From the NCBI GenBank assembly GCA_029262115.1, contig JAJCZZ010000101.1, forward strand, positions 124,001 through 188,000: a stretch of DNA of 64,000 nucleotides. Direction: 5' to 3'. A program made the position numbers and the translations under genes. This document shows, piece by piece, positions 26,533-58,500 of the stretch. Source of the stretch: Gemmatimonadota bacterium. GTDB taxonomy: Bacteria; Gemmatimonadota; Gemmatimonadetes; Longimicrobiales; Gaopeijiaceae. The notes under the pieces are model-generated. The model did not search any database. It worked only from the letters and a program-made list of their open reading frames with translations, and was not told where the DNA came from. The stretch's first letter is position 1; the number at the start of each line of letters is the position of its first letter.

Positions 26533-28068
26533 ATGGCCGTGCCCTTTCGGTCACCAGTGGGGCTGGTTTCCGGGCCGCGCGGCGTCCGCGCGGTGCCGGT
26601 CGACGGGTCGGGTACGCCGAAGGAGGTCGTGCGTCCGCCGGAGTCGCTGGTCGGAGTATTCCCTCCGGTCTATCCGGAGTGGCTGGGCGACCGGGATTTT
26701 CTGGTCCGCCATGGCTGTCGCTTCCCCTACGTGGTCGGCGAGATGGCCCGAGGAATCGCATCGGCGGAGATGGTCGTCGCGTCGGCGCGTGCCGGCTTCA
26801 TGGCGTTCTTCGGCAGTGCGGGGCTGACCATATCGAGCGTGGATGAGGGTATCACCGCCATCCAGTCGGAGCTGGGTCCCACCATCCGGAACTGGGGCGC
26901 CAACCTGATCCACAGCCCTCAAGAACCCCACATGGAAATGGAGTTCGCCGAGTTGATGCTCGCTCGGGGGGTCACCAACATCTCAGCGTCCGCATTCATG
27001 CGACTCGCGCCAGCCGTGGTCTACCTCTCGGCCAAGGGACTCCACCGCGATGCGAACGGAGCCATTCGACGCCGGACGCACATCTTCGGCAAGGTTTCAC
27101 GCGTCGAAGTGGCCCGCCCCTTCATGTCGCCGGCTCCGGACAGCCTCCTTATGCCTCTGGTGTCCCAGGGTCTGATCTCGGACCAGGAGGCTGCGCTGGC
27201 TCGCCAGGTCCCGGTGGCGGGCGATATCACGGTCGAGGCGGATTCGGGCGGGCACACGGACAACCGACCGCTGTCGGTCCTCCTCCCGCTCATTCTGTCC
27301 CTCGCGGCCGAGTGTGCGCGTGAGCACGGCTTCGCCTCGCCGGCTCGTGTCGGCGCTGGCGGCGGACTCGGTACTCCGGCGGCGTTGGCGGCGGCCTTCG
27401 CCGCCGGCGCGGCCTACGTGGTCACGGGCTCGGTCAACCAGGCGACCCTCGAATCGGCCCTGTCACCAGACGGACGAGCCATGCTGGCCCTGGCCAGCAG
27501 TACCGACGTCGCCATGGCGCCCGCGGCCGACATGTTCGAGATGGGTGTGGAGGTCCAGGTGCTGAAGCGAGGTACGCTCTTCGCACAGCGTGGCAAAGAG
27601 CTCTACAAGGTGTTTCGCACCTACCCCTCGATCGAGGCGATACCGGATCGGGTTCGGTCGGCGCTGGAGAACAACGTCCTCGGCCGTCCGATCGACGACA
27701 TCTGGGACGACACCCGGGAATTCTTCCTGCGCCGTGATCCGCCGCAGTTGGAGCGGGCCGAAGCTGACCCGAAGCACCGTATGGCACTGGTGTTTCGGTG
27801 GTATCTTTTCATGGGCGCCCAGTGGGCTCGCTCGGGCGAGGTGACGCGCCGTGCCGATTATCAGATCTGGTGCGGCCCCGCCATGGGCGCGTTCAACGAG
27901 TGGGTGAAGGGGAGTTTCCTCGAGCCCGTCGAAAATCGGTCCGTCGTTCAGGTGGGTCTGAACCTTCTCGAAGGAGCAGCCCATGTGACGCGTGTCCAGC
28001 AGCTACGGCTAGCGGGTGTCCCCCGACGGCCCGAGGACCTCGAGTTCTCGCCACGTCCACTCCGATGA
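26533..28068 (+). CDS. pfaD: PfaD-type enoyl reductase of a PUFA/secondary-lipid synthase
   Basis: This 511-residue flavoprotein is the trans-acting enoyl reductase of Pfa synthases. It has the TIM-barrel of nitronate-monooxygenase-like reductases with PfaD hallmarks: VGEMARGIASAEMVVASARAG, NLIHSPQEPHMEMEF, ITVEADSGGHTDNRP, RVGAGGGLGTPAALAAAF, VTGSVNQATLESA and the diagnostic APAADMFEMGVEVQVLKRG. Flavin (FMN) binding is inferred from the family. ATG 26533 is chosen; a GTG at 26503 in the same frame is possible and neither has a strong ribosome site. Its stop overlaps the pfaA start (ATGA), making it the first gene of the four-gene operon. Confidence 0.93.
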   Translation: MAVPFRSPVGLVSGPRGVRAVPVDGSGTPKEVVRPPESLVGVFPPVYPEWLGDRDFLVRHGCRFPYVVGEMARGIASAEMVVASARAGFMAFFGSAGLTISSVDEGITAIQSELGPTIRNWGANLIHSPQEPHMEMEFAELMLARGVTNISASAFMRLAPAVVYLSAKGLHRDANGAIRRRTHIFGKVSRVEVARPFMSPAPDSLLMPLVSQGLISDQEAALARQVPVAGDITVEADSGGHTDNRPLSVLLPLILSLAAECAREHGFASPARVGAGGGLGTPAALAAAFAAGAAYVVTGSVNQATLESALSPDGRAMLALASSTDVAMAPAADMFEMGVEVQVLKRGTLFAQRGKELYKVFRTYPSIEAIPDRVRSALENNVLGRPIDDIWDDTREFFLRRDPPQLERAEADPKHRMALVFRWYLFMGAQWARSGEVTRRADYQIWCGPAMGAFNEWVKGSFLEPVENRSVVQVGLNLLEGAAHVTRVQQLRLAGVPRRPEDLEFSPRPLR

Positions 28069-31000
28069 GAAAAGCGATGCAGCCGTCTCCCCCGGTCGCC
28101 GTGGTCGGCATGAGTTCCATCTTCGCCGGTAGCCACGATGTCCTCGGCTTCTGGCGAGATATCGTTTCGGCTACGGATCGCCTAACGGACGTTCCCCCCG
28201 AGCACTGGCTGATCCAGGACTACTACGATCCGGATCCGACGGCTCCGGACATGACGTACGCGAAGCGGGGTGGGTACCTGGATCCGCTTTCCTTCAATCC
28301 GATGGAGTTCGGGCTGCCTCCGAACTCGATTCCGGCCACCGACACCGCCCAACTTCTGGCGCTCATCGCTGCCAAGCGTGTCCTGGAAGACGCCGGGCGC
28401 TTCCGTGACGGCGAGATGGACCAGACCCGCACCAGCGTGATCCTGGGGGTCGCTTCCGCGACGGAGTTGGTCGTGCAGATGGGCGCTCGGCTACAGCACC
28501 CGATCTGGAAGAAGGCCCTTCGTGACGCCGGTCTGCCCGAGTCTCGCGTGCAGGAGATCGTCCAGCGCATCAAGGACCACTATCAGCCGTGGCAGGAAAG
28601 CACGTTTCCGGGCCTTCTCGGCAACGTGGTGGCGGGTCGGATCGCCAACCGCTTGAATCTCGGGGGCTCGAACTACGTGACCGACGCCGCGTGCGCGAGT
28701 TCACTGTCCGCGGTGAAGGCGGGCCTTGCCGAGTTGTATCTGGGGGATAGCGATACGGTCATAGCCGGGGGCGTCGACGCTCTGAACGACATCCTCATGT
28801 ACATGTGCTTCTCGAAGACGCCGGCCTTTTCTCCGACAGGTGACTGCCGTCCGTTCTCCGAGGATGCCGACGGAACGCTGATCGGCGAAGGCGTCGGCAT
28901 GGTTGTCCTGCGTCGGCTTGAGGACGCCGAGGCGGACGGTGACCCGATCTACGCGGTCATCCGGGGGCTCGGGTCATCGTCCGACGGGAAAGGCTCCAGT
29001 GTGTACGCTCCCCGTCCGGAAGGGCAGGCCTACGCCCTTCGGCGGGCGTACGAACGGGCCGACTACAGCCCCGCTACGGTCGAGTTGGTGGAAGGGCATG
29101 GGACGGCGACGAAGGCCGGGGACGTCGCCGAGGCCCGCGGTCTCGCATCGGTATTCGCCACGTCCGAGATTGACGAAGAGCAGTGGTGCGCTCTGGGCTC
29201 CGTGAAGTCCCAGATCGGACACACGAAGGCCGCGGCTGGCTCGGCTGGCATGATCAAGGTGGCGCTTGCGCTGCATCACAAGATCCTTCCTCCGACCCTC
29301 AAGGTGTCAAAGCCGAACGGCAAGCTCGCCTTGGCGGACAGCCCGATCTACATCAATACGGAGGCTCGGCCCTGGATCCGCGGAAGCGAGCACCCTCGGC
29401 GCGGCTCGGTGAGCTCGTTCGGGTTTGGCGGCTCGAACTTCCACGTGGCCCTCGAGGAGTACGTCGGCCCAGGACGTCGTCCGCTCAAGCTGCGCTTCTG
29501 GGAGGACGAACTCTTCCTCGCTTCCGCGGACGATGCGGCGGGGTTGGAGAATGAACTCGGGCGATTGGCCAACAAGGTCGAGGGCGGCTATCCGCTCGCA
29601 AGACTCGCCCACGAGACGGCGGCAGCATTCGACTCCAAGGCGGGAGCACGCGTCGCCATCGTGGCCGCCGGTGCCGAGGATTTCTCGGCCCGAGTTCACA
29701 AGGCTCGCAAGGCGTTGAAGGATGGTCAGGCCCGGGCGCTACCCGATCCCGACATCTCCTTCGGCTTTGGCGCGCCGACCGAGGGCAAGGTCGCGTTCGT
29801 ATTCCCCGGCCAGGGAAGTCAGTACGTCGGTATGGGTTCGGCGGCGGCCATGGCGTTCGACAGGGTGCGCGAGGTCTGGGACCGCGTTGCGGACATGGAC
29901 GTCTTCGCGGGCGACCGCCTCGACCGTGCGGTCTTCCCCCGTCCCGCCTTCACGGCCGAAGAGCGCTCCGCGCAGGCCGAGCAGGTAACGAAGATGACCA
30001 CGGCACAGCCTGCCATTGCCGCCGTCAGCCTCGGCTACCTCCGGCTCCTGCGCCTTGCCGGCGTCGAGGCCCAGGCGGTGGCTGGCCACAGCTTCGGCGA
30101 GTTGACCGCGCTCGCGGCGGCGGGCCGCATCGACGAAGCCGAGCTCCTCGCCACGGCGCGCAAGCGCGGTGAGTTGATGGCCGAGGCGGCCGACAGTCGG
30201 GCGGGGGCCATGATCGCGGTCGCGTCAGACGCCGAGACAGTCGCGGCCCACCTCGACCGGAGCGGAGTCGTCATCGCCAATGACAACGCGCCGAATGAGG
30301 TCGTGCTCGCCGGCTCCGTCGATGCGATCGACGCCATGAGCCGGAAGCTCTCCGAGGCGGGACTCCGCTCCGTGCGCCTTCCCGTCGCCTCCGCGTTCCA
30401 CTCCGAGATCGTCGCAGACAGTTGCGAGCCGTTCCACGATCACCTTCAGGGGGTGGACTTCCACGACACCTCAGTCGCCGTGTTCGCGAACAAGACGGCG
30501 GGCGTCTATCCGACGGAGGCCGACCGGGCCCGGCGGATCCTTGCCGATCAGTTGGCCTCGCCCGTTCGGTTCAGGGAGATGGTCGAAGCCATGTACGAGT
30601 CGGGCGTCACCCACTTCGTCGAGGTCGGACCGGGCCGGGTGCTGACCAAGTTGGTCGGTCGGATCCTCGGCGATCGGCCTCACCTTGCCGCGGCGCTCGA
30701 CGACAAGAAAGGAAGTGGACTTCGCGCCTTGTGGCGTGGCCTCGGGCAGTTGGCGACGGCCGGAGTGTCCGTTGACGTCAACGCCCTCACCGAGGGCTAT
30801 CGGGTGCCGGATGCGCCCAGCGAAGCGATGCCGTTCGAGGTCATGATCTCGGGCACCAACAGCGAGAAGCCCTACCCCCCGGCGAACGGTGCCGCGGGCC
30901 TTCCCGCTCCGAATCCGGAGGTGCCAGAGTCGTCTCCGACCGCTTTGAATACGCCTACGTCGTCGGCCTCGACGGCACGTATGGCGGCCGCTCCGGACTC

Positions 31001-34000
31001 AAACGGGTCGGCCCCTGCTTCTGTGCCATCGGCTCCCTCGGGTGCCCCGGCCTCGGTCTCACCCGCACCCGCACCGGTCCCTGTTATGGCTGATCGACCC
31101 TCGTCCGCGCCTTCTCCGCACGTTCAGACTGCCGCGATCGCCGCGCACCAACGGTACATGGAGTTGATGGCCGAGAGCCATCGCTCCTTCCTTCAGATGG
31201 CGGCGGGCGCCATGGGTGCGGGTGCGAGTGTGCCGACACCGACCACCACGACACCGACCACCACGGCGCCGGTTTCCGTGGCCGCAATGGCGGTTGCGCC
31301 GAGCGTCAGTGAGCCGGCCGCTGTGGCCGAGCCGAAGCCCGAACGTGTACCGCAGCCGGCTGCGGTATCGCCCCCTGCGCCGTCCTGGGCCGCAGAGCCG
31401 GAGACCTCTTCCACAGCGGCATCGCCTGCACCGACCATTCCCGTTGAGGCGGTGGCTCCTGCCCCGGCCGTCGATGTGACCGCGGTAGCCTTGGAAGTGG
31501 TGTCGGAGAAGACGGGGTACCCGGTCGAGATGCTCGACCTCGACATGGAGATGGAAGCCGGCCTCGGCATCGATTCCATCAAGCAGGTCGAGATCCTGTC
31601 CGAGCTCCAGGCGCGGATCCCGGGCGTGCCGGAGATCGAGCCGTCGGAACTGGCCACCCTACGGACGTTGCGCGATGTCGCGGATAAATTGTCGACAGGG
31701 ATGGGCGCTGCTGCTGCGGGGGCCGGAGTGGCGGTGGTCGGCGCCGCGGCCGGAAGCGTTTCGGTGCCTGCCGCCGCTGCGACCGTGGCCGGCGAAGGGA
31801 CCGCCCTGGCAGCCGTCGATGTGACTGCGATTGCCCTGGAGGTCGTGTCCGAGAAGACTGGATACCCGATCGAGATGCTGGATCTCGACATGGAGATGGA
31901 GGCCGGGCTCGGCATCGATTCGATCAAGCAGGTCGAGATTCTCTCCGAGTTGCAAGAGCGGATTCCGGGCGTCCCCGAGATCGAGCCGTCCGAACTCGCG
32001 ACGCTCCGCACGCTCAGGGACGTAGCGGACAAGCTGTCCGCGGGGATGGGGTCCGTTGCGGTGGCTGCGACCGGCGCGGCAGATGCCGTGGCATCGTCCG
32101 CCGCGCCCGCCGAAGCGCCGTCCCCCCTGCCCAGTGAGGCCCCTTCCGGGACAGGGGGTGCGGAAGCCGCGGTTGACGTGACCGCCATTGCGCTTCAGGT
32201 GGTGGCCGAAAAGACGGGGTACCCGGTCGAGATGCTCGACCTGGACATGGAAATGGAAGCCGGCCTGGGTATCGACTCCATCAAGCAGGTCGAGATTCTT
32301 TCGGAACTGCAGGAGCGGATCCCGGGCGTCCCGGAAATTCAGCCGGCCGAACTGGCGCAGCTCCGTACGCTCCGGGATGTGGCGGACAAGTTGGCGATGG
32401 GCGGCGCACCGACGACAGCTGGTGAGGCGGCGTCTGGTGAGGCTCCTTCACGGAAGGTGGCCTCCCCCTCGGCTGCTTCGCGAAAGGTCGTGGCGTCCGG
32501 ATCGCCGTCGGCCGAACCGGACGCACCCGAAGGCGAGCCGGCCCGACCAGGCGCCGTCGCGCCGGCGACGCCCCACCCCGCTGCTGGCGCGTCTCGACGA
32601 GGCCCCCCTGCTGTCGAGCAGACGACGGTTCCGTCCGTCTCGGTTTTCGTGCCCCACATGGTCACGGAAGAGCGTCCGGGCTTCGGGATGCTGGGCCTGA
32701 CGCCGGGCATGCGCGTCGAGGTGACCGACGAGGCGCCCGAGCTTGCAGCGGCCATCGTGGAGGGGCTTGAGGCCGGTGGCGCGAGCGCTCGGATGGTGGC
32801 GACCCCTTCTCACGCGGCATCGGCGGTGGTGAGCCTGGCTGCCCTCGCGGCCGATCCGGGGTCGACCTCGTCTCTCTCCGTTCACACCCGCATCATCGAG
32901 GCCGCCCGGGCGGTTTCTGCCCTTCAGGAGGTGGAGGAACGCCTCTTCGTCACTGTACAGTCGACGGGAGGTGACTTCGGGCTCGATTCAGATCCGGGCG
33001 CGAGTAGCTGGACCGGTGGCGCCGCGGGAGTCGTGAAGACGGCCGCTCGCGAGTGGCCCGGTGCAGCAGTCAAAGCCATCGACGTCGCCAACGTGTCGGG
33101 CGCCGCCGCCTACATCGTCGAGGAACTCTTCGCGGGGGGGCCTGCGCTTGAAGTAGGCTACGCAGCCGACGGAACGCGTGCGGTGGTCCACATCGAGCCG
33201 CTGACGCTGTCGAGCCCAGACGGGCCGGCACTCGAACCGGGCGACGTCGTCGTCGTTTCTGGTGGCGCCCGGGGTGTGACCGCGACCTCCGTCTCCCGTC
33301 TGGCCGAGAGGTGGGGCGTTCGCCTGGTGCTCCTTGGCCGCTCCAGCCTCGGCGAATGGCCGCGGGAAATGCCGCTGTCCACCGATGTTGTGGAACTCAC
33401 CGCGGCCCTTGCGGCTGGTGCGCGGAGTCGGGGGGAGACCATCGACCTGCCGAGCCTCCAGAAGGAAGCTCGATCGCTCGCGGCCGCGGCCGAGGTTCGG
33501 CTTACGCTGGCCGGCATGGAGGAGCGGGGCGTACAGGCGAAGTACGTGAGCGCCGATGTGTCGGATGCCGGGCAGGTCGCCGCGGCCCTCGCTTCGGTTC
33601 GTGAGACGTGGGGTCCGATCCGTGGCATCGTTCACGGCGCCGGCGTACTGAGGGATAAGGCGCTCGCCGGGATGACCCCCGACCGGGTCGCCGAGGTCTT
33701 CGGTCCGAAGGTCGAGGGTCTCTCGGTTCTTCTCGAAGAAACGAGGGATGATCCCCTGGGGATGATCGCGCTCTTCTCATCGGTGGCGGCGCGTGCCGGG
33801 AACTCAGGGCAGTCGGCCTACGCGGCTGCCAACGAGGTTCTGAACAAGGTCGGCGCCGCGGAGGCGCACCGGCGCGGCGACTCTTGCACCGTGCGATCCT
33901 ACAACTGGGGTCCGTGGGATGGCGGCATGGTCGACGCGGGCCTGGCCGCGCACTTCGCCAAACAGGGCGTCGCCCTGTTGAATGTGGACGACGGTGCCGA

Positions 34001-34862
34001 CTACTTCGTCGAGGACCTCGGTCGGAAGGGCGGGAGCGTGGAGCGCGTCGTCCTGGCGTCACCCTCCTTTGCTACCCGGTCGCAGCGGTTGTGTGCGGAT
34101 ACGCAGCGCGGCGGCATGAAGACCGACGATTCCGGTGCCGGGCGGGACTACGGCGACTCGGCGGTCGTGGCCGACACGGCGCTCCGGCTCGGCGAGTCCC
34201 TCAAGCCGGTCGGGACCATGAGCGTCACGCTCGAAGACTTCGTCATCACCCGCCCGGGCTGGGGAGCGGTGGGCGAGCCATCGAGGCCGCACACCGTCGA
34301 TATCATACCGCTCGAGGACAATGGCGCGGGCCACCGGCTGGTGTTCTCGGGGCCGGACGGCCAGCCTCACCACGAAGCGGTCCTTCGCTACTCGGATGCA
34401 GGTACGATGCCTCCCCCGGAGGTGCCATCGGGTGGACTCGAGCCGTGGCCGTTCGATGTCGGGGCGGCTCTGGAGTCTCTGCTCGATTCGATCGGCGAAG
34501 CGCGTTCGATCCTCCACCTGGAGGGCGTCTCGGCCGAGGGGGGAATGGCTCTGCTGAGGAGCGTCGCGCCGTCGTGGCCCGTGTCCAAGGGGCGTCCGGC
34601 CGGCTTCAATCCGGCACTCTTCGCGGGGCTTCTGCAGCTCGGGACCTTGTGGACGCACCAGCGGTCTGGAGCGGCGCAGTCGCTCGCACGGATGGGGACG
34701 ATGGTGGTGCATCGCCTCGAGGCGATCCCGGAGCGGGTGAGGTCGGCCTTCCGGGCGCGTCAGACCGAGCGGGGCACGCTCTTCGACTTCGTGCTGGCAA
34801 CGGAGGACGGGCGTCTCCTGGCTCAATTGCATGAGGTCCAATTCGAGGCGCCAGGTGTCTGA
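28065..34862 (+). CDS. pfaA: PfaA-type multidomain synthase: KS-MAT-ACPx3-KR-DH-like
   Basis: This 2265-residue iterative type I synthase has, in order: ketosynthase (about 7-460; Cys210 in DAACASS, His345 in EGHGTAT, His386 in IGHTKAAAG); malonyl transferase (about 570-880; FVFPGQGSQYVGMG, Ser676 in GHSFGE); a Pro/Ala linker; three acyl carrier proteins (LGIDSIKQVEI at Ser1171, Ser1286 and Ser1405); a ketoreductase (SGGARG from 1732, Ser1906, Tyr1919 in YAAANEVLN); and a C-terminal hotdog/DH-like region (about 2030-2265). All catalytic residues looked for are present. It would load malonyl units, condense and reduce them while the chain stays on the ACPs. ATG 28065 overlaps the pfaD stop; the open frame continues upstream but lies antisense-like over pfaD. 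Three ACPs is fewer than many marine PfaA proteins. Confidence 0.95.
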   Translation: MRKAMQPSPPVAVVGMSSIFAGSHDVLGFWRDIVSATDRLTDVPPEHWLIQDYYDPDPTAPDMTYAKRGGYLDPLSFNPMEFGLPPNSIPATDTAQLLALIAAKRVLEDAGRFRDGEMDQTRTSVILGVASATELVVQMGARLQHPIWKKALRDAGLPESRVQEIVQRIKDHYQPWQESTFPGLLGNVVAGRIANRLNLGGSNYVTDAACASSLSAVKAGLAELYLGDSDTVIAGGVDALNDILMYMCFSKTPAFSPTGDCRPFSEDADGTLIGEGVGMVVLRRLEDAEADGDPIYAVIRGLGSSSDGKGSSVYAPRPEGQAYALRRAYERADYSPATVELVEGHGTATKAGDVAEARGLASVFATSEIDEEQWCALGSVKSQIGHTKAAAGSAGMIKVALALHHKILPPTLKVSKPNGKLALADSPIYINTEARPWIRGSEHPRRGSVSSFGFGGSNFHVALEEYVGPGRRPLKLRFWEDELFLASADDAAGLENELGRLANKVEGGYPLARLAHETAAAFDSKAGARVAIVAAGAEDFSARVHKARKALKDGQARALPDPDISFGFGAPTEGKVAFVFPGQGSQYVGMGSAAAMAFDRVREVWDRVADMDVFAGDRLDRAVFPRPAFTAEERSAQAEQVTKMTTAQPAIAAVSLGYLRLLRLAGVEAQAVAGHSFGELTALAAAGRIDEAELLATARKRGELMAEAADSRAGAMIAVASDAETVAAHLDRSGVVIANDNAPNEVVLAGSVDAIDAMSRKLSEAGLRSVRLPVASAFHSEIVADSCEPFHDHLQGVDFHDTSVAVFANKTAGVYPTEADRARRILADQLASPVRFREMVEAMYESGVTHFVEVGPGRVLTKLVGRILGDRPHLAAALDDKKGSGLRALWRGLGQLATAGVSVDVNALTEGYRVPDAPSEAMPFEVMISGTNSEKPYPPANGAAGLPAPNPEVPESSPTALNTPTSSASTARMAAAPDSNGSAPASVPSAPSGAPASVSPAPAPVPVMADRPSSAPSPHVQTAAIAAHQRYMELMAESHRSFLQMAAGAMGAGASVPTPTTTTPTTTAPVSVAAMAVAPSVSEPAAVAEPKPERVPQPAAVSPPAPSWAAEPETSSTAASPAPTIPVEAVAPAPAVDVTAVALEVVSEKTGYPVEMLDLDMEMEAGLGIDSIKQVEILSELQARIPGVPEIEPSELATLRTLRDVADKLSTGMGAAAAGAGVAVVGAAAGSVSVPAAAATVAGEGTALAAVDVTAIALEVVSEKTGYPIEMLDLDMEMEAGLGIDSIKQVEILSELQERIPGVPEIEPSELATLRTLRDVADKLSAGMGSVAVAATGAADAVASSAAPAEAPSPLPSEAPSGTGGAEAAVDVTAIALQVVAEKTGYPVEMLDLDMEMEAGLGIDSIKQVEILSELQERIPGVPEIQPAELAQLRTLRDVADKLAMGGAPTTAGEAASGEAPSRKVASPSAASRKVVASGSPSAEPDAPEGEPARPGAVAPATPHPAAGASRRGPPAVEQTTVPSVSVFVPHMVTEERPGFGMLGLTPGMRVEVTDEAPELAAAIVEGLEAGGASARMVATPSHAASAVVSLAALAADPGSTSSLSVHTRIIEAARAVSALQEVEERLFVTVQSTGGDFGLDSDPGASSWTGGAAGVVKTAAREWPGAAVKAIDVANVSGAAAYIVEELFAGGPALEVGYAADGTRAVVHIEPLTLSSPDGPALEPGDVVVVSGGARGVTATSVSRLAERWGVRLVLLGRSSLGEWPREMPLSTDVVELTAALAAGARSRGETIDLPSLQKEARSLAAAAEVRLTLAGMEERGVQAKYVSADVSDAGQVAAALASVRETWGPIRGIVHGAGVLRDKALAGMTPDRVAEVFGPKVEGLSVLLEETRDDPLGMIALFSSVAARAGNSGQSAYAAANEVLNKVGAAEAHRRGDSCTVRSYNWGPWDGGMVDAGLAAHFAKQGVALLNVDDGADYFVEDLGRKGGSVERVVLASPSFATRSQRLCADTQRGGMKTDDSGAGRDYGDSAVVADTALRLGESLKPVGTMSVTLEDFVITRPGWGAVGEPSRPHTVDIIPLEDNGAGHRLVFSGPDGQPHHEAVLRYSDAGTMPPPEVPSGGLEPWPFDVGAALESLLDSIGEARSILHLEGVSAEGGMALLRSVAPSWPVSKGRPAGFNPALFAGLLQLGTLWTHQRSGAAQSLARMGTMVVHRLEAIPERVRSAFRARQTERGTLFDFVLATEDGRLLAQLHEVQFEAPGV

Positions 34863-37800
34863 ACGGGAGGGCTCTACAACCGTACGACCGTTTGGACCCA
34901 TCGCCGTCGTCGGGCGCGCGTGCGTGCTGCCCGGCGCCCTTTCCCCGGAAGCACTGTTCGACGCGGTTCGCGACGGACGTATCCTGGTCGACCATGCACC
35001 CGAGGGCGCATGGGGCATCGACTCCGGCTCCCTCGTGGAGGGGTGCTCCTCCGCGCCGGGGACGGAACGTGTCGTCAGCGATCGGGGGGGGTACGTCACC
35101 GGCTTCGACGAGATTTTCGACGAGGCCTTCTTCACCGAACGGGTGGAGGCGCCGAATCGGCTGGACGCGCTCACCCGCTGGCTTCTGCACTGCGCTCGGG
35201 GCGCGTTGGCGGAGGCTGGAGTAGACGAGGCTCCCGAGAAGACCGGCCTCGTGGTCGGGAATCTGTCGTACCCTTCGGTGGAACACACACGCTGGGTGCA
35301 GCGCCACTGGCTGGGCGAGGGGGAGTTCGCACCGCACGGCACTGGTTCGACATCGGGTTCGCAATCGGGCGACCGAACAGTCGACCCGCGGAATCGGTTC
35401 TCGTCCGGAGCGCCGGTTCACATCGTGGCCAACGCGTTCGGGTTGAGGGGCGATTCCTTCGCGATCGACGCCGCGTGTGCATCATCGTTGTATGCCCTCG
35501 ACATCGCGTGTCGTCGCCTTCAGGACGGCGCGGCCGACTTGATGCTGGCGGGGGGTGTGACGAGAGCCGACCCGCTGTTCATCCACCTCGGCTTCACCGC
35601 GCTCCAGGCGTTGAGCCCGACCGGTCAGTCGCGGCCGTTTCACAAGGGCGCGGATGGCCTTCTCCCGGCGGAGGGTGCGGGTCTGGTGGCGCTCAAGCGA
35701 CTCGACGACGCGGTTCGAGACGGGGACGGCATCTTCGGAGTCATCCGCGGGATCGGGCTGTCGAACGACGGGCGCCAAAGCGGCTTCCTCGCGCCCGCAT
35801 GGGAGGGACAGGTGAAGGCGATGGAGTCGGCGTATGTGTCTGCCGGCCTGTCGCCATCGGATATCGACTTCGTCGAGTGTCATGCGACCGGGACGGTCCG
35901 GGGTGACAGCGTCGAGTTGGACAGCCTCATACGAATGTGGGGCGATGCGCCCAAGCCGGTGATCGGATCTCTCAAGGGCAACATCGGCCATCCGATCACG
36001 GCGTCGGGCGTTGCGAGCCTGCTCAAGGTTCTGGCGTCGTTCGACGCGGCGCTCTACCCGCCATCGCCCTGTGACAAACCACTGGACGCCATCGCCGAGT
36101 CCGGGTTCCGCCTTCTCTCCGAGGCGGAGCCCTGGCCGTCAGAGGGCCCGCGTCGGGCCGCCATCAGCAACTTCGGCTTCGGAGGGAATAACGCACATCT
36201 AATCGTCGAGGAATGGACGGGTGAGATTTCCGATGACCTCGCCGCCCTTGCGACCCAGGGAGGGGGCGGGTCGGATGCGGCGACCAGGGAATCGGCTGTA
36301 CTCGTCGGTGAGGATGATGTCGTCATCTGTGCCATCGGCGTCATTGCCGGGGAATCCGTGGGCCTTCCCGACTTCGTCCGGCGGTTGATGGCGCCCCCCG
36401 ACGGCACGGAGACGCGAACGGACGTGGTGGAGCTGGCCGTGGCCGGTCTCGGCTTTCCGCCGAACGATCTACGCGAGAGCCTGGCACAGCAGACGTCCAT
36501 CCTGGCCGTCGTGGACGAGGCTCTCGAACAGTTTGGAGACGTCGATCCGGACCGTACCGGCGTCTACGTCGGAATGGGCGTCGACCCCGAAGTCGCTCGT
36601 CACGGTCTTCGGGTACGGCTCCGTGAGTTGACGGACGGCTCGATCGACGGCGCTGCATGGCTCGAGTTGAACAGTGCGTCGGCCCGCACGTTGACAGCGC
36701 CGGGGGTTATCGGCTGCATGCCGAATATTCCGGCGAACCGGGTGCATGCGTGGAAGGACTGGCGGGCTCCTGGCTTCACGGTGGCTTCGGAGGAGCTCTC
36801 GGGCATCCACGGGATGGGGTTGGCGGCCCGTGCGCTCCGTAAGGGCGACATCGATGTGGCGGTCGTCGGTGCATCCGACTTCTCGCACGAACGTGCGCAC
36901 CTCGGCGCTGCTGCGGCCGTCTTGCCGGGCGACCGTCAGAAGCCGGGAGACGCGGCCGTCGCGCTGATCCTCATGCGCGCGCGCCAGGCGTCCGACGAGG
37001 GGCGCCCCGTGGTGTCCGGCGTGCTGGTGGACGCTGGGCGGACGGACGGTGGGTCGGTAGACGGTGGACGGATGGACGGTGAGCCCGCCCCGGGAGATGT
37101 GGGAACCATTGACGCGGGCAACGCTGCGCGCTCCGGCACGGGGGCGTATTCGAGTGAGCCCTTGCGGCTGGCGCTCGTAAACGAGTCCGGGCCGAGCCCG
37201 GTGACCGAGCGGTTCGGGCACGCGCACGCCGCCTCTGGACTTCTGCACGTCGCCGCGGGCGCCGTGCTCGCCCATCTGGACGCGAAGGCGGACGCGGCGG
37301 GTGGGTGGCCGGCTCCGCGGCCTCGTGACCGGCCCAACGCCCTGGTGTCGATCCGGTCGTTCACGGAGCGGTCCGAGCAGGTCGCCCTGAGGGGAGCCTC
37401 GGAACCGCTCGGGGCCATCAGCCCCGTTCGGGCGCCGTGCGTGCGGTTCTTCGCGGCCGGCTCGACGGCCGCGCTCGCCGAGGCGGTCGCCGCCGACCGC
37501 GAAGGCCGGCAGGGGCGCGCGCGGCTCGCACTGGTCGGAAGGACCGAGGAGGAGATCGAGCGGTCGCGTTCCTACGCGGCCCGGGAACTCTCGGCCGACC
37601 GGGCGCCGTCGGCCCCGGGCGTCCACTTCGGCCAGGGTGACCCGGACGGTGACGTCGCGTTCTGCTACACGGGCGCCGCCGCGGCCTATCCAGGCGCGGC
37701 CCGGGACCTTCTCCTCGCCTTCCCGGAGATCGGCCGGCGACTCTGTGATCGGTTCAGCGGTACGCCCGACCTGGCCGCCCAACTGTACGGAGAGGGGATC

Positions 37801-40800
37801 GAGAGCTTCTCACCGGCGACTCAACTCACCGGGTCCTCCTTCGTGTGCCAAGCCCACACCGAGTTCATGCGGACGGTCCTGGGTGTCGCGCCCCAGGCGG
37901 CGATCGGTCTGTCGTCCGGGGAAACCAACTCGTTGATGGCGTTCGGTGTCTGGAACGACCTCGACGAGATGGTGGCCGAGATCGAGGCGTCGGAGATGTA
38001 CGCCAATCAACTGACGGCCGAGTGCCGCGCCGCGGCTGCCTTCTGGGGGCTTCCCGAGGGCGAGCTGCCCGACTGGCGGAACTATCGAATCGCGGCCCCG
38101 CGCGAGGTTGTAGAAGAGGCCGTCGCCGATGAGCCGAGGGTCTACGTCACGGTCGTGCACCACGACGAGGACGTGGTCATTGGCGGTGACGCGGCCGGAT
38201 GCGCCCGCGTTGTGGACGCGGTCGGGAGAAACCGGGCCATCGACCTCGGTCTCGACATGGTCGTCCACTGCGAGCCGCTGGCTCCGTTCGAGGCCACGTG
38301 GTACCGGATCCACGAGAGGGAGACCTACTCCGTCCCGGAGGTGCGGTTCTACACGAACGCGACCAACGCATCGTACGTGCCGACGCGCGAGTCCGCCGCG
38401 GCGGCGATCACGCGACAGGCCATCGAACCGATCGACTTTCCGAAGACGATTCTCCAAGCCTACGACGACGGCGTCCGTGTCTTCGTCGAGCACGGCCCCA
38501 GGGCCACCGTAACCGGTGCGGTCGGCCGCATCCTGGCGGGACGGCCCCATGTAGCCGTGGCGCTGGACCCCTTCGAGGGAGCGGGACTGGCCGCGGTTGC
38601 CCAGACGGTCGCCGCATTGTGGGCGGCGGGCGTGCCGATGGAGCTGGCCGGATACATCCAACGGCTCGCCGACCTCCGGGCCGGTGCGCTCCCGCGGGGC
38701 CGCCCGGCCGGAACCACCCTGGCGTTCCACGCGCATCCGCCCGACATCGTCTGGCCCGAACCGACCGACTCCGCTCCGGCCGCGACGAGTGAGCCGCCTA
38801 CCGAGATCCCGAGCATGTCCGACACCATGGACCCCGATGCACGGCCCGACCTGTTCACCGCGGCCTCCGTCATGGCGCCCCCGCCCCCCAGTGGGTTCGG
38901 ATACGACCTGAGCGCGATGTTCTCTTCAGGCGGGGAGGCCGTAGAGGACGGGGGAGGAGAGCGTGCGGGGGGACGGCGCGCAGTTGGAGCCGAAGCGCCG
39001 GTGGTGGCGGCGCCCCCGGCCTTGACTCGACCCGCCGAAGTCACGGCTCACTCCGCTCCGGACAGCCCGTTTGCAGCGGTTGCGCGAGCGCACACGGTGT
39101 TCCTGGAGGAGCAGGCGAAGACCCAGGAGGCGTTCCTTGCGTTGATGTTCGAGCCGGGGCTTCAAGCACAGCCGGGCGGACAGGGGGCCGTCGCCGCACC
39201 GTCCACCCACGCCGCTGCACCGTCCACCCACGCCGCTGCGCGAGGGACCGCCGCGGTCGCGCCGCCTCTGGCGGCCGCTTCGTCGTCGCAGGGAGGTCCG
39301 GGGCGTGGCGCGTCTGGCCCGCCGTCTCCGGTCATCGAGGTGTCACCGCCGATCGACCGGACGCTCCTTCCCGATGAGCCTTTCCTCACGCGGGAGCAGT
39401 TGGAGGTTCACGCCGGCGGGACCATTTCCGAGATCTTCGGCGACCTCTTCAAGCAGCAGGACTGCCATGCGCGTCAGGTACGCATGCCGGAGCCGCCGCT
39501 TCTGTTCGCGGAGCGTGCGCTCCTCATCGAGGGCGAGCCGGGTTCGATGAAGAAGGGGCGGGTCGTCACCGAGACCGACGTGCACCCCGGTGCGTGGTAT
39601 TTGCACTCGGGGAGGATGGCGCCCGGTGTGGTCATCGAGTCCGGACAGGCTGACTTGCTGCTGATCTCGTGGCTCGGCGCTGACTTCCTGAACAAGGGCG
39701 AGCGCGTCTATCGCCTCCTGGGGTGCGATCTGACCTTCCATGGCGGGCTGCCCGCCCCGGGAGAGACGCTCACCTACGACATCCACGTGGATGGGCACGC
39801 CAGGACCGGCGACGTCAGGCTGTTCTTCTTCCACTACGACTGCTACATCGGCGACCGCTTACTCATTTCTGTGCGGAACGGACAGGCGGGTTTCTTCACG
39901 ACCGAAGAGCTGGCGGGCTCCGGGGGCGTGTTGTGGGATGCCGAGGACGACGAGCCCGCGCCTGACGCACGTATGGATCCGCCCTTCCGACTCACCACGA
40001 AGCGCAGCTTCACTACGAACGAAGTGGCTCACTGGGTCGCAGGGGACGCCTACCGGTGTTTCGGTGAAGGCTTCGAGTTGGCCGCCAGCCATACGCGGAC
40101 TCCGAACTCACCGGACGGCCGCCTCCAACTTATCGATCACGTCCCCGAGTTCGACCCGACGGGAGGTCCGTGGGGTCGGGGCTACCTGCGTGCCGAGGCG
40201 CACGTCACGCCCGACACCTGGTTCTATGACGGCCACTTCAAGAACGACCCCTGCATGCCGGGTACACTCATGGCCGACGCCGCTACCCAGGCGCTCTCCT
40301 TCGCCATGGCCGCGATGGGCTTCACGATCCGCCGCGACGGCTGGCGTTTCGAGCCGGTGGCCGGGGAGATGGCCCGCTTCCTGTGCCGTGGTCAGGTGAT
40401 TCCGGACGGCCCACACATGCTGGAGTACGAGGTCTTCATCGAAGAGGTCGTCGGCGGGGACGAGCCCGAGATCTACGCAGCTTTGTTGTGCAAGAGCGAT
40501 GGCTTCAAAGTGTTCCAGTGCCGCCGTTTCGGCATGAAGCTCGTGCCTGACTATCCCCTGAACACGAAGCGGGAGTATCTCGGTGGGGAGATCGAGCCGC
40601 GGTTGGTCGGGCCTCCCGGAAGTGACGTCCGGGGGGACTACGAGGCGCTCCTGGCGTGTGCGTGGGGCAAGCCCAGTGACGCCTTCGGACAGATGTTCGA
40701 GAAGTTCGACGGCATCCTGAAGTGCCCCCGCCTCCCGAGCCCGCCGTATCACTTCATGAGCAGCATCGTGTCCGTGGATGTGGCGCCCGGATCGGCCGTG

Positions 40801-41748
40801 CAGGGTGGCACGGTGGTTTCGACCTTCGACGTCGATCCGGATGCCTGGTTCTTCGACGAAGGGCAGGGGCACATGCCCTTCGCCGTCCTCGTGGAAGTCC
40901 TCCTGCAACCGTGCGGATGGTTCGCGTCCTATCTGAACTTCTTCGCGGATACACCGGGGGATGTCGCTTTCCGGAATCTCGACGGCGACGACTGTGTCCT
41001 GCACAAGCCGGTTGGGCCCGGCGTGGGTACCATGAAGCTCACGACGAAGCTTACCCGCTTTGTAAAGGCGGCCGGAACGAGCATCGTCTTCTTCGAGGTC
41101 GCCTGCGAGGACGATGATGGGCCGATCATGACGCTCACGACCGATTTCGGATTCTTCAGTCCGGAAGTGCTCGAGGAGCAGCGCGGACTCACGACCTCGG
41201 ATGAGATGCGTGCCAGAAAGAACGCGCCGTCTCCCACCCCGGAGGTCAGCCTGTCCGATGGGGGTGGCCCGTTGGCCAAGCTGCCCGGCATGGTCACCGG
41301 CAAGTTGCGGATGATCGATCGGGTGACCGGTTTCTGGCCCGACGCGGGCGAGGCGAGGCTGGGCCGCATCCGGACCGCTCAGGAGATCCACCTGGACTCC
41401 TGGTACTTCAAGGCCCACTTCTTCGAAGACCCGGTACAGCCGGGTTCGCTTGGACTGGAGGCGCTGATCCAGACAGCTCGCGCACTGGCCGAGATGAAGG
41501 GCTGGCTGGACGGCATCGAGAACCCGGTCTGGGAACACCCGGTTGTCGGCACGCCGATCTCCTGGCGCTACCGCGGACAGGTGGTGCCCACCAAGAAGGA
41601 GGTCGTGACCGAGGTCGAAGCACAGGCCGTCGACATCGTGGAAGGCGAGTCCATGACGCTCACGGTGTACGGCACGCAGTGGGCGGACGGTCTAAGGATC
41701 TACGAGATGCCGTCGTTCGCCGTTCGGGTACGTTCCGGGGGCGGATGA
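34855..41748 (+). CDS. pfaC: Fused PfaC/PfaB-type synthase: KS-CLF-AT-four hotdog domains
   Basis: This 2297-residue protein combines parts that are split between PfaB and PfaC elsewhere. A second ketosynthase (about 7-455) has Cys208, His343 (ECHATGT) and His379 (GNIGHPITASG). A chain-length-factor-type KS follows, in which the Cys is replaced by Glu646 (FTVASEELSG). The acyltransferase (about 928-1260) has GLSSGE with Ser1020. After a linker come four hotdog segments: one with WYLHSGRMAPGVVIESGQA (His1584), an FabA-type with HFKNDPCMPG (His1794, Asp1808), one with GHMPFAVLVEVLLQPCG, and an FabA-type with HFFEDPVQPG (His2188, Glu2202). They pair as two double-hotdog dehydratase/isomerase units. 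GTG 34855 is preferred for its GAGG at 34845-34848; ATG 34831 is possible. No AGPAT domain follows. Two in-gene repeats sit at 37045 and 39196. Confidence 0.9.
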   Translation: MSEREGSTTVRPFGPIAVVGRACVLPGALSPEALFDAVRDGRILVDHAPEGAWGIDSGSLVEGCSSAPGTERVVSDRGGYVTGFDEIFDEAFFTERVEAPNRLDALTRWLLHCARGALAEAGVDEAPEKTGLVVGNLSYPSVEHTRWVQRHWLGEGEFAPHGTGSTSGSQSGDRTVDPRNRFSSGAPVHIVANAFGLRGDSFAIDAACASSLYALDIACRRLQDGAADLMLAGGVTRADPLFIHLGFTALQALSPTGQSRPFHKGADGLLPAEGAGLVALKRLDDAVRDGDGIFGVIRGIGLSNDGRQSGFLAPAWEGQVKAMESAYVSAGLSPSDIDFVECHATGTVRGDSVELDSLIRMWGDAPKPVIGSLKGNIGHPITASGVASLLKVLASFDAALYPPSPCDKPLDAIAESGFRLLSEAEPWPSEGPRRAAISNFGFGGNNAHLIVEEWTGEISDDLAALATQGGGGSDAATRESAVLVGEDDVVICAIGVIAGESVGLPDFVRRLMAPPDGTETRTDVVELAVAGLGFPPNDLRESLAQQTSILAVVDEALEQFGDVDPDRTGVYVGMGVDPEVARHGLRVRLRELTDGSIDGAAWLELNSASARTLTAPGVIGCMPNIPANRVHAWKDWRAPGFTVASEELSGIHGMGLAARALRKGDIDVAVVGASDFSHERAHLGAAAAVLPGDRQKPGDAAVALILMRARQASDEGRPVVSGVLVDAGRTDGGSVDGGRMDGEPAPGDVGTIDAGNAARSGTGAYSSEPLRLALVNESGPSPVTERFGHAHAASGLLHVAAGAVLAHLDAKADAAGGWPAPRPRDRPNALVSIRSFTERSEQVALRGASEPLGAISPVRAPCVRFFAAGSTAALAEAVAADREGRQGRARLALVGRTEEEIERSRSYAARELSADRAPSAPGVHFGQGDPDGDVAFCYTGAAAAYPGAARDLLLAFPEIGRRLCDRFSGTPDLAAQLYGEGIESFSPATQLTGSSFVCQAHTEFMRTVLGVAPQAAIGLSSGETNSLMAFGVWNDLDEMVAEIEASEMYANQLTAECRAAAAFWGLPEGELPDWRNYRIAAPREVVEEAVADEPRVYVTVVHHDEDVVIGGDAAGCARVVDAVGRNRAIDLGLDMVVHCEPLAPFEATWYRIHERETYSVPEVRFYTNATNASYVPTRESAAAAITRQAIEPIDFPKTILQAYDDGVRVFVEHGPRATVTGAVGRILAGRPHVAVALDPFEGAGLAAVAQTVAALWAAGVPMELAGYIQRLADLRAGALPRGRPAGTTLAFHAHPPDIVWPEPTDSAPAATSEPPTEIPSMSDTMDPDARPDLFTAASVMAPPPPSGFGYDLSAMFSSGGEAVEDGGGERAGGRRAVGAEAPVVAAPPALTRPAEVTAHSAPDSPFAAVARAHTVFLEEQAKTQEAFLALMFEPGLQAQPGGQGAVAAPSTHAAAPSTHAAARGTAAVAPPLAAASSSQGGPGRGASGPPSPVIEVSPPIDRTLLPDEPFLTREQLEVHAGGTISEIFGDLFKQQDCHARQVRMPEPPLLFAERALLIEGEPGSMKKGRVVTETDVHPGAWYLHSGRMAPGVVIESGQADLLLISWLGADFLNKGERVYRLLGCDLTFHGGLPAPGETLTYDIHVDGHARTGDVRLFFFHYDCYIGDRLLISVRNGQAGFFTTEELAGSGGVLWDAEDDEPAPDARMDPPFRLTTKRSFTTNEVAHWVAGDAYRCFGEGFELAASHTRTPNSPDGRLQLIDHVPEFDPTGGPWGRGYLRAEAHVTPDTWFYDGHFKNDPCMPGTLMADAATQALSFAMAAMGFTIRRDGWRFEPVAGEMARFLCRGQVIPDGPHMLEYEVFIEEVVGGDEPEIYAALLCKSDGFKVFQCRRFGMKLVPDYPLNTKREYLGGEIEPRLVGPPGSDVRGDYEALLACAWGKPSDAFGQMFEKFDGILKCPRLPSPPYHFMSSIVSVDVAPGSAVQGGTVVSTFDVDPDAWFFDEGQGHMPFAVLVEVLLQPCGWFASYLNFFADTPGDVAFRNLDGDDCVLHKPVGPGVGTMKLTTKLTRFVKAAGTSIVFFEVACEDDDGPIMTLTTDFGFFSPEVLEEQRGLTTSDEMRARKNAPSPTPEVSLSDGGGPLAKLPGMVTGKLRMIDRVTGFWPDAGEARLGRIRTAQEIHLDSWYFKAHFFEDPVQPGSLGLEALIQTARALAEMKGWLDGIENPVWEHPVVGTPISWRYRGQVVPTKKEVVTEVEAQAVDIVEGESMTLTVYGTQWADGLRIYEMPSFAVRVRSGGG
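37045..37083 (+). repeat. 15-bp minisatellite inside the CLF-coding region
   Basis: GACGGTGG-type units start at 37045, 37060 and 37075, a 15-bp period. They encode a Gly/Asp-rich stretch (TDGGSVDGGRMDG) interrupting the chain-length-factor domain. This looks like replication-slippage expansion of a surface loop. Confidence 0.7.
39196..39237 (+). repeat. 21-bp direct repeat in the AT-hotdog linker
   Basis: Two perfect copies of a 21-bp unit (39196-39216 and 39217-39237) encode APSTHAA twice. They fall in the Ala/Pro-rich linker between the acyltransferase and the first hotdog segment. Confidence 0.75.
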
Positions 41749-42485
41749 CGGCGGAAGATCTGGCAGCCAACACGGCGCGGCCCCCTCGTCTGGAACGAGA
41801 TCGGCCGCACGTGTGGCTCTTCGACATGACGATGTCGGCATTCGACCGACTCGCCGACATCGGAGCGCCGCCGCAGCATATCGTGGAACGAGCGGATAAG
41901 CTGACAGATCCATTTGCAGCCCGCAGCCTGGTCGCCCGTCACGGCGCCCTCCGACTGGTTTTGGCTGGTTACCGCGGTTGCGCCCCCGAGGAGGTGAGGG
42001 TGGTCGTCGCACCCGGTGGGAAGCCGATTCTCGTGCCCGGTGACGACACCTCGGCCATGCCGCTCGCGTTCTCGGTGTGCCACGCCCGCGACCTCTACTG
42101 CGTTGCAGTGGGTCGCGTATCGAGTCTGGGCGTCGATCTGGAAGCGCCAAGAGACGTCCCGCGGGCCGAGTCGATCGCTGCCAAGTGGTTCTCCACGTCG
42201 GAGGCCGCTGCGGTGGCGGGCGAGGCGCCCGAAGCCCGCACCGCCGCCTTCCTCAGGTTGTGGACGGGGAAGGAAGCGCTGGCCAAGCGACACGGAGCCG
42301 GGCTCAGGCTCATGGGGGCCGGTGGTCACGAACTGGATGTCGACCGTGCCGTCAGCGCCGGCCGGCTCCGCTTCTTCCGTGTAGGAGTGGAGGGTCCCCA
42401 CCCGGGACAGTACCAGGGCGCGGTCGCCAGCAGCGAGGTCATCGACGGCGTCGAACCGCTGCGGTGGGGTGGCGCCTCCAACTGA
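41745..42485 (+). CDS. pfaE: Sfp-type 4'-phosphopantetheinyl transferase (PfaE role)
   Basis: This 246-residue enzyme would transfer the phosphopantetheine arm of CoA to the Ser of the three PfaA ACPs. Sfp-type motifs are visible: FSVCHARDLYCVAVG, LGVDLEAPRD (metal-binding Asp and Glu) and LRLWTGKEALAKRHGAG (WxxKEA). The N-terminus (HVWLFDMTMSAFDRLAD) resembles the Sfp first subdomain. ATG 41745 overlaps the stop of the preceding synthase (ATGA), placing it as the last gene of the operon. The context makes the substrate almost certain, although such enzymes may also serve other carrier proteins. Confidence 0.92.
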   Translation: MTAEDLAANTARPPRLERDRPHVWLFDMTMSAFDRLADIGAPPQHIVERADKLTDPFAARSLVARHGALRLVLAGYRGCAPEEVRVVVAPGGKPILVPGDDTSAMPLAFSVCHARDLYCVAVGRVSSLGVDLEAPRDVPRAESIAAKWFSTSEAAAVAGEAPEARTAAFLRLWTGKEALAKRHGAGLRLMGAGGHELDVDRAVSAGRLRFFRVGVEGPHPGQYQGAVASSEVIDGVEPLRWGGASN

Positions 42486-55381: not shown

Positions 55382-55564
55382 GGCGGACACGCTGAGCCAG
55401 CCGACCGGCGACACGCGCCTCGAGACGTTCGTCGCGATGGGCTGAGGGTCAGACTTCGAGGTGTGACTGAGAGCGAGCGCGGTTGGCCCACTTCTGTTCC
55501 GAGGCGGGTCCTCTCCCCTACATTGGCCGCCGATCCACTGTCCCGCGAACCCAAGGAACCGCCG

Positions 55565-58500
55565 ATGCTCGCGACCCGTTTTCTACCTTCGGCCACGGCA
55601 TGCACGCTGGTAGCCGGCGCCCTCTTCCTCTCCCCTCCGACCCCCGTCTCGGCCCAGGCCACGTGGAACGCGGTCATCGACTCCGCGATGATGGCGGGGT
55701 ACCGGTGGCGCAATCTGGGTCCTGATCGTGGAGGGCGCTCGATTGCCGTGTCCGGTGTCGTCGGGCAACCGGATGTCGCGTACTTCGGGGCGGTCGGCGG
55801 CGGGCTGTGGAAGACCACGAACGGCGGGGAAGATTGGCGCCCCGTGACCGACTACCAGATCACGTCGGCGTCGGTCGGTGCCGTGGCGGTCAGCGAGACC
55901 AACCCCGACATCGTGTTCATCGGCACGGGAGAGACGTGCATCCGGGGCAATATCCTACCCGGTGACGGGGTTTATCGGAGCCTCGACGCGGGCGAGACCT
56001 GGGAGCACATCGGATTCCGGGACTCCCACGGGATCTCCAAGATCAGGATCCACCCGACCAATCCGGACATCATCTATGTGGCGTCGTTCGGGAAGTACTC
56101 GGTCCCGAGCGAACAGCGCGGCGTTTTCAAGAGCACCGACGGCGGGGACACGTGGCGGCGCGTGCTCTACCGGAACGACGAGACGGGGGCCATCGATCTG
56201 GTCATCGACAGGAACGACCCCAACGTCCTCTACGCCTCGCTGTGGCAGGCCTTCCGCAAGGAGTACACGATGTCGTCCGGCGGCCCGGGCAGCGGCATGT
56301 TCAAGAGCACGGACGGCGGTGAGACCTGGACGGAGATGACCCGGAACCCGGGGATGCCGCAGAGCGGATTGGTCGGACGGATCGGCCTGGCCGTCTCGAG
56401 CGCGGACTCCGACCGCGTATACGCGCTGTACGAGAACGACGACGGCGGACTCTTCCGGAGTGACGACGCGGGCGCGACGTGGGAGTTGGTCAACGACAAC
56501 CGTGCCATCCGCCAGCGCGCGTTCTACTACACGCACGTCTTCGCCGACCATCAGGACCCGGACGTGGTCTACATGGAGAACACGTCGATCTTCCGGTCGA
56601 CGGACGGTGGCGAGACGTACGAGACCATCAACAACGGCACGCACGGCGATTTCCACGATCTGTGGATCGATCCGAGTGACCCGTCCCACCTGGTCGTCGG
56701 GAATGACGGCGGCGGCGCGGTCAGCTTCGAAACGGGGGAGGAGTGGACGGACCAGGAGTACTCCACGGCACAGTTCTACCATGCGGTGACGACGGCGCAC
56801 ATCCCCTTCCACGTGTGTGGGTCGCAGCAGGACAACAGCACATTGTGCCTACCCTCGGACTGGAACGCCGGACGCTTCGGCTTCGGGGGCGGGGGCAACG
56901 TCTTCGGCGGTGGCGGGGCCGACGATCGGAGTATCACCGAAGGCTCGATGAATGTGGCGTACCGCGTCGGAGGCGGCGAGCCGGGGTACATCGCACCGGA
57001 TCCGCAGGACCTGAACGTGTACTACTCCGGCACGAACAACGGGCGGTACGTCGACAAGTACAACCGGACGCTCGACATGGGGCGCGAGGTGAACCCCTAC
57101 CCATGGTTCTATTCGGGCGAGCCCGCTCTGGACATGGTCGAGCGGTGGCAGTGGACGTTTCCGATCCTCTTCTCGCCGCTCGACCCGAACACGCTGTACG
57201 TATCGTCGAATCGGCTGTGGCGAACGAAGGATGGGGGCCTCACCTGGGATCGCCTCAGCCCGGACCTGACGCGGGCCGACCCCATGACACTCGGCCATTC
57301 CGGCGGTCCGATCACCGGGGACATGAACGGACCGGAGGTCTACGCCACCATCTTCTCGGTGGGTCCGAGCAAGGTCGACATGGACGTCATCTGGACCGGA
57401 TCGGATGATGGTCTGGTCCATGTGACGCGCAACGGCACGGCCACGGGCGATGCGGTCGGGTGGGAGAATGTGACACCGCCCGACATGCCGGACTTCGGGC
57501 GCGTCAGCCAGATCGACGCGTCGGCGTTCTCCGCCGGAAAAGCGTACGTCTCGGCACGGTTGCCGCTGCTCGACGACTTCCGCCCCTACATCTGGAAGAC
57601 CGACGACTACGGTCGCACGTGGACCAAGATCGTGAACGGACTGCGGGACGACGCCTACGTGAACGCCGTCCGTGAGGACAGCAATCGCGAGGGGCTGCTG
57701 TACGCGGCGACCAACCACGGTGTGTACATCACCCACGATGACGGCGCCCACTGGCAGGAGCTGAACCCCAACCTGCCGGACATGCCAATTACCGACCTGA
57801 TCGTGGAGCACGATGAGCTGGCCATCGCCAGCCATGGGCGGGGCTTCTGGGTGCTGGACAACATGGCGCCGCTGCGGCAGGCACGGGCGGGCCTTACCGA
57901 TGAGGACATGGTGCTGTTCGACCCGGCCGTGGCCTACCGCTCCGCGGACGGTGCCACGCTGTCGTGGTGGTGGGACGAGGTACCGTCGGACGCGCGGATG
58001 GAGATCCTCGACGCCAGCGGGTCGGTGGTGCGCACGTTCGAGCCTCAGGATACGACCGTCGAGCGTGACCGCTGGAGCGGTGCGGCGCTTCCCATGAAGG
58101 AGGGTCTGAACTACCTGCAGTGGGATCTACTCACAGACCCGTGGACGTCGTTCCCGGGCATGATCCTGTGGGGCGTGCGCACCACGGGGCCGGCCGTCCC
58201 ACCCGGCACCTACACGATTCGGCTGATGGCGGACGGGCGTACCGACACGTCGCGGATTGAGGTGCGCGCGAACCCGTGGCTCACCGACATCTCTGTCGCG
58301 GACATGCAGGAGCAGTACACGTTCGGCCGGGCCATCTGGGAGAAGGTCGACGAGGCGAACCGAGCGGTCGTGGCCATCCGTCGCGCGAAGGCACAGATCG
58401 ACGCCCGCCTGGAGGAGTCGGATGATCGGCGCCTGGCGGACGTGGCCGAGCGGTTGGTGAACAACGCGTCCGAGGTGGAGTCGGACCTGTACCAGGTGCG

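Follow-up and report, generated by a model that had tools for sequence, protein, structure and literature searches.

Here we describe a four-gene operon within a 64,000-nucleotide stretch of DNA from the Gemmatimonadota (hereafter the window, to which all positions refer). It most probably encodes an iterative Pfa-type synthase that belongs to a clade specific to the Gemmatimonadota and retains the PKS-type dehydratase (PS-DH) of PfaA as a non-catalytic structural remnant, a reading to which we give a probability of about 0.7. This reading draws on sequence throughout: the genes present, the order of their domains, the state of the active sites, the phylogeny and the selection acting on the remnant. 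The source genome is 5.45 Mb in size and 95.7% complete.

The four genes are co-oriented on the + strand, overlap end to start and follow the order D-A-(C+B)-E. The overlap is 4 bp between pfaD and pfaA (28065-28068) and 4 bp between pfaC+B and the phosphopantetheinyl transferase (PPTase) gene (41745-41748). Between pfaA and pfaC+B it is 8 bp with the GTG start at 34855 and 32 bp with the ATG start at 34831. The original prediction of four genes overlapping by 4, 8 and 4 bases agrees with these coordinates and this order, its middle figure needing the GTG start. Scans for promoters and terminators gave no signals above chance level.

The first gene, pfaD (26533-28068), encodes an FMN enoyl reductase (ER) of 511 residues that scores 612 bits against the curated profile TIGR02814 (cut-off 449). 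Its best solved relatives are the Shewanella PfaD structures 6lkc and 4yx6. In the comparison with the PDB, Shewanella PfaD and the ER domains of thraustochytrid PUFA synthases rank above PKS trans-ERs, and on these scores we rejected assignment to the latter. The second gene, pfaA (28065-34862), encodes 2265 residues arranged as KS-MAT-ACPx3-KR followed by the degenerate PS-DH, and scores 1435 bits against TIGR02813 (cut-off 1010). A profile search against Pfa families, proposed with the original prediction, thus placed PfaD and PfaA over their curated cut-offs; because the operon also recurs in other genomes, chance resemblance is excluded. The PfaA ketosynthase (KS; 28092-29306) carries its Cys in DAACASS (28683-28703) and its His sites at 29091-29111 and 29205-29225. 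It is followed by the malonyl acyltransferase (MAT; 29796-30659; PF00698, 122 bits), with GHSFGE at 30084-30101 and AFHSE at 30393-30407, and by three tandem ACP phosphopantetheine sites (31563-32282; PF00550 in three stretches), with LGIDSI at 31563, 31908 and 32265. The ketoreductase (KR; 33249-33920; PF08659, 125 bits) has SGGARG at 33258 and SAYAAAN at 33813.

The third gene (34831-41748) is a fusion of pfaC and pfaB and encodes 2305 residues (8 fewer from the GTG at 34855) in the order KS-CLF-AT-DH'-DH1-DH'-DH2. Pfam recognizes a KS, two FabA-like domains and a weak acyltransferase match. The KS (34897-36066) has DAACASS at 35467 and His sites at 35875 and 35974. The chain length factor (CLF; 36298-37410), a weak second KS match, has its active Cys replaced (TVASEELSG, 36778-36804). 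Among solved structures, the PfaB-like acyltransferase (AT; 37645-38706), with GLSSGE at 37906 and a His in MVVHCEP at 38257, is closest to Shewanella baltica PfaB (9ry8, E 8.7e-18), and the alignment pairs the catalytic Ser and His of the two; it scores 40 bits against TIGR02816 (cut-off 144) and has GLSSG in place of GYSMG. The remainder alternates non-catalytic hotdogs with FabA-like dehydratases: a DH' at 39331-39930 (WYLHSGRMAPGVVIESGQADL), DH1 at 39931-40560 (GHFKNDPCMPGTLMADA, His-Asp), a second DH' at 40561-41160 (WFFDEGQGHMPFAVLVEVLLQPCGW) and DH2 at 41299-41709 (AHFFEDPVQPGSLGLEA, His-Glu; PF07977). Both dyads are intact by Pfam and motif check.

The last gene (41745-42485) encodes an Sfp/HetI-type PPTase of 246 residues in the pfaE role (PF01648, 48.7 bits; motifs GVDLE and WTGKEALAK). 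Its best profile is HetI, at 82 bits well under the cut-off of 370. In PMC3098273, PUFA-type PPTases (PfaE) are described by the motifs P0 hRxhLS, P1a x(G/D)xP and P1b (F/S)NxSH. Here P1a (GGKP) fits; P0 (LRLVLA) lacks the final Ser; and P1b (FSVCH) is the hShxH variant. The enzyme therefore combines a PUFA-type P1a with a non-PUFA-type P1b, FSxxH being the variant of types M-T in that paper. The motifs and Pfam domains of all four proteins bear out the predicted layout of PfaD, a KS-MAT-ACPx3-KR PfaA, a KS-CLF-AT-hotdog PfaC+B and a PPTase, and the operon is, judged by sequence, a genuine Pfa-type (PUFA or secondary-lipid) synthase.

The exception to the expected inventory is the double-hotdog PS-DH at the C terminus of PfaA (34038-34859). 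The synthase had been predicted to be complete, with all active-site residues searched for present; this domain contradicts that, because it has neither the catalytic His nor the LFHG motif, and the Asp is replaced by Ala in PALFAGLLQ (34611-34637). Pfam finds no PKS_DH_N match in the domain, and PF14765 reaches 19.8 bits, below its cut-off of 23.7; a mycobacterial homologue scores 49 and 51 bits, respectively. Among PfaA C termini, the catalytic His and the LFHG motif are lost in all six distinct genomes of the clade and in none of 28 outside it; in those 28, three residues are kept throughout, namely the catalytic His, the LFHGP His and the D-x-x-x-Q Asp. The Asp position within the clade is Ala in the window, Glu in four genomes and Asp in one, the last being the earliest-branching in the KS tree. 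A frameshift in the window as the source of the lost site was rejected, because six distinct genomes have the same loss.

The fold, by contrast with the active site, appears to be kept. An AlphaFold model of the domain (pLDDT 79, pTM 0.80) retains the double hotdog and aligns to the CurF and CurK dehydratases with Z of about 23. Pairwise dN/dS in the domain is about 0.1-0.2, a rough value since dS is high; being well below 1, it indicates that the domain is retained under constraint (purifying selection). From the sequence comparison and the model, we take the PS-DH to be catalytically degenerate yet structurally retained. In principle, a non-homologous residue could take over some of the activity. 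A search elsewhere in the genome found no intact PS-DH over the cut-off; at 95.7% completeness, a dehydratase acting in trans may still exist.

We next consider how such a synthase could work, with the reaction order, a polyunsaturated product and the terminal role of the AT inferred from characterised relatives. The PPTase would arm the three ACPs of PfaA, and the MAT would load malonyl units for chain extension by the PfaA KS and by the KS-CLF pair of PfaC, with the KR reducing each keto group. In characterised systems, the trans-2-enoyl group that the ER saturates comes from the PKS-type DH, and FabA-like DHs dehydrate and isomerise to cis double bonds (PMC9667614, PMC9702510). With the PS-DH dead, DH1 and DH2 must supply both outcomes, the saturation path and the cis bonds, so that all dehydrations would fall to these two domains of PfaC. 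Part of the enoyl groups would be isomerised to cis double bonds and retained, and the remainder would pass to PfaD and be saturated. The PfaB-like AT would then transfer or release the finished long-chain polyunsaturated acyl group; chain transfer or release has been shown for PfaB of Shewanella and Moritella (PMC12895367). As the active site is lost in every close relative examined, the machine probably takes an altered route to its lipid.

Whether the altered route leads to an altered product is where the main alternative enters. The operon could encode a Pfa synthase of the ordinary kind whose product is a standard LC-PUFA (EPA, ARA or DHA-like), the loss of the PS-DH being neutral and the FabA-like DHs or host FabZ covering all steps. 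The intact FabA-like dyads, ER, KS/CLF and AT are consistent with this, as is the finding that three DH domains of PUFA synthases can each substitute for E. coli FabA (PMC9702510). Moreover, no PS-DH was seen in either PfaA or PfaC of a sampled Hyphomonas operon, whose group neighbours the clade in the PfaD tree, and PS-DH-free synthases therefore seem viable. Against it, the PS-DH fold is under selection although its catalytic site is lost in six of six genomes. In addition, swapping DH domains alters the product, and because the DH set influences the product in characterised systems (PMC6731297), an unchanged product is not expected. We regard an ordinary LC-PUFA synthase as possible but doubtful. 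We propose, equally tentatively, that the degenerate PS-DH marks a PUFA synthase lineage that relies on FabA-like dehydratases only and retains the dead domain in a scaffolding role. Its product would then lie outside the known range of PUFAs. If so, the Gemmatimonadota would hold a lipid class not yet described, for example one that keeps hydroxyl groups or is saturated in another pattern.

In each cycle, a PUFA synthase either keeps or saturates a double bond. What governs this choice is understood only in part; the present model has the PS-DH and the ER together carry out the saturating cycles. A lineage found in nature, with a PS-DH that is still under selection but no longer has its active site, offers a ready test of that model. 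In the open-access literature searched we found no report of Pfa synthases with a catalytically degenerate but retained PS-DH, nor any of PUFA-type synthases in Gemmatimonadota, and we do not claim priority for either. The operon suggests synthesis of polyunsaturated-type lipids in the Gemmatimonadota, a phylum from which no such lipids are reported in the literature searched.

The predicted placement of the operon in a Gemmatimonadota genome was upheld by its relatives. In a scan of named genomes, the closest PfaD sequences come from eight Gemmatimonadota/Longimicrobiales metagenome-assembled genomes (MAGs; 71-77% identity), followed by mycobacteria (58-61%). The same operon, with PfaD identity of 70-77%, is found in independently binned MAGs of that group. 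In a sample of 298 Gemmatimonadota genomes, PfaD exceeds the curated cut-off in 16. Ten of these, the window's own included, hold the window type, defined as PfaD identity of at least 70%, and the other six hold other types (48-54% identity). In the PfaA KS tree, a Gemmatimonadota clade of 14 rows (support 100/100) is sister to a mycobacterial clade (99/96). The same pairing appears in the PfaC KS tree (97/97), and the PfaD tree, the only one that marine references entered (taken from PDB alignments), agrees in outline, with the mycobacterial sister node weakly supported (95/59). Contaminating or misbinned myxobacterial DNA, to which the gene order equal to pfa1-2-3 might point, is thus barely conceivable: nine other genomes in the phylum sample hold the same type, a recurrence that excludes contamination, and the KS trees, which left out Aetherobacter and Minicystis, put the operon with mycobacteria and outside the Myxococcota.

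The same trees bear on a heterocyst-glycolipid-like (hgl) synthase, which would make saturated hydroxylated chains. HetI is the best-scoring profile of the PPTase, albeit far under its cut-off. However, two intact FabA-like DHs are present here, and hgl clusters are without them (PMC3098273). The KS phylogeny suggested with the original prediction points the same way: in the PfaA KS tree, two sampled cyanobacterial rows, Nostoc and Roholtiella, stand-ins that may not be heterocyst-glycolipid genes, are remote from the Pfa clade, across long and strongly supported branches. The PfaA KS tree and the FabA-like DHs together disfavour an hgl-type synthase, which we consider highly improbable.

In the PfaD tree, the other Gemmatimonadota Pfa types (genomes G020/G143, G004/G276, G275 and G044; loci L112-L118 and L122) lie apart from the window type, close to sequences from Planctomycetota and Acidobacteriota and to Shewanella-like ones, giving at least five separate types in the phylum. 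From these placements, the Gemmatimonadota seem to have acquired Pfa genes at least five times, with repeated transfer, as inferred from the tree, the simplest explanation. A TIGR02816 search of 369 Gammaproteobacteria returned two weak fused matches, and in plasmid and phage collections an operon of Azospirillum lipoferum was the only useful match. Separately, the Pfa genes on MAG contigs titled Bifidobacterium breve and Klebsiella pneumoniae (L023, L050) cluster with those of Myxococcota and proteobacterial MAGs; the titles of these contigs are therefore probably wrong.

The genes flanking the operon encode a glutamate racemase, an S9 peptidase, an LD-carboxypeptidase, a gamma-glutamyltranspeptidase, a Mur ligase, kinases and an argininosuccinate synthase, with no evident role in lipids. 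A 1107-residue Sortilin/BNR-repeat protein is encoded at 55463-58786, downstream of two histidine kinases. In three Gemmatimonadota relatives, a Glyoxalase_3 gene (PF13468) directly follows the PPTase gene (L107:5182-5904, L110:5098-5787 and L124:128-784). It is absent from the window and is possibly a lost or optional member of the operon. It is also the only downstream neighbour that recurs among the relatives. Synteny of the window flanks with relatives is almost nil, and a conserved neighbourhood was rejected as a clue to the product.

The neighbourhood bears, too, on a specialised-lipid synthase, in which the acyl chain would be built into a secondary metabolite such as a lipopeptide or glycolipid and not into a membrane phospholipid. 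The mycobacterial sister operons are suggestive here: that of M. simulans is followed by an NRPS condensation-domain gene, and those of M. fortunisiensis and Mycolicibacterium sp. CBMA 234 by an RmlA-type nucleotidyltransferase gene. PMC13291983 reports the latter two as PKS-NRPS-PUFA hybrid clusters and describes a related one from M. simulans. The lack of an AGPAT domain for phospholipid loading and the FSxxH P1b of the PPTase (see above) point the same way. By contrast, no NRPS or PKS genes such as mark the hybrid clusters, and no ligase or glycosyl genes, were recognized among the 20 flanking window genes scanned, and the near absence of synteny also counts against a specialised product, which we consider rather unlikely.

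Of the known systems, the Pfa-like operons of mycobacteria (M. simulans, M. gastri, M. fortunisiensis and Mycolicibacterium sp. CBMA 234) share with the window the order D-A-C, the KS-CLF-AT-DH-DH fusion and the FabA-like His-Asp DH1 motif MADAATQ, and the C-terminal halves of their PfaC proteins are 55-59% identical to that of the window. They differ in that their PS-DH is intact and no PPTase gene was seen directly downstream, whereas the window has a degenerate PS-DH and a PPTase within the operon. M. simulans (L145, L126) carries two distinct Pfa-type PfaC genes, whose products are 59% and 46% identical to that of the window in the C-terminal half.

The likeness to myxobacterial pfa1-pfa2-pfa3 that had been predicted holds for gene order: the operons of Aetherobacter, Minicystis and Sorangium (PMC8436480, PMC6731297) also run D-A-C, and in Aetherobacter and Minicystis the AT is likewise fused into PfaC. 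It does not extend further. Myxobacterial Pfa3 ends in an AGPAT and the PPTase gene lies elsewhere (PMC8436480, PMC4882568); the operon in the window is the opposite on both counts, and its KS domains group with mycobacteria. Minicystis Pfa3 has a PS-DH-type DH4. Pfam found no AGPAT (PF01553) in the 2305-residue PfaC+B. In the plasmid operon of Azospirillum lipoferum (L165), the same search detected an AGPAT and a DH that resembles the PS-DH, so its failure to find an AGPAT here is not one of method. The Azospirillum operon resembles the myxobacterial type and, unlike the operon in the window, has a C-terminal AGPAT.

Marine pfaABCDE systems (Shewanella, EPA type A; Moritella, DHA type B) have the domain inventory of the operon in the window, whose PfaD and AT match solved Shewanella proteins. 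This operon differs from them in the fusion of PfaB into PfaC, the gene order, the number of ACPs (three versus four to six) and the degenerate PS-DH. Shulse and Allen (PMC3098273) describe a Type L that begins with pfaD and has KS-CLF-DH-DH-AT, and a Type C that has KS-CLF-AT-DH-DH and ends with pfaD. With pfaD first and KS-CLF-AT-DH-DH, the operon in the window matches neither exactly when the types are compared by these descriptions.

The Pfa operons of Hyphomonas and Henriciella, near neighbours in the PfaD tree, likewise lack a working PS-DH at the PfaA end; in these operons it has disappeared instead of decaying, and PfaA is divided, with the KR as a gene of its own. The PS-DH is also absent from the PfaA end in Azospirillum, and in Ilumatobacter and Azospirillum it sits after DH2 in PfaC (loci L138, L038, L137 and L165 show the varied placement). 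Characterised synthases do include a PS-DH, but since the domain is missing in the Hyphomonas sampled and moved in Azospirillum and Ilumatobacter, we do not take it as defining the Pfa family. A working PS-DH in PfaA is thus not universal, and what is distinctive in the window is a copy that is decayed but conserved.
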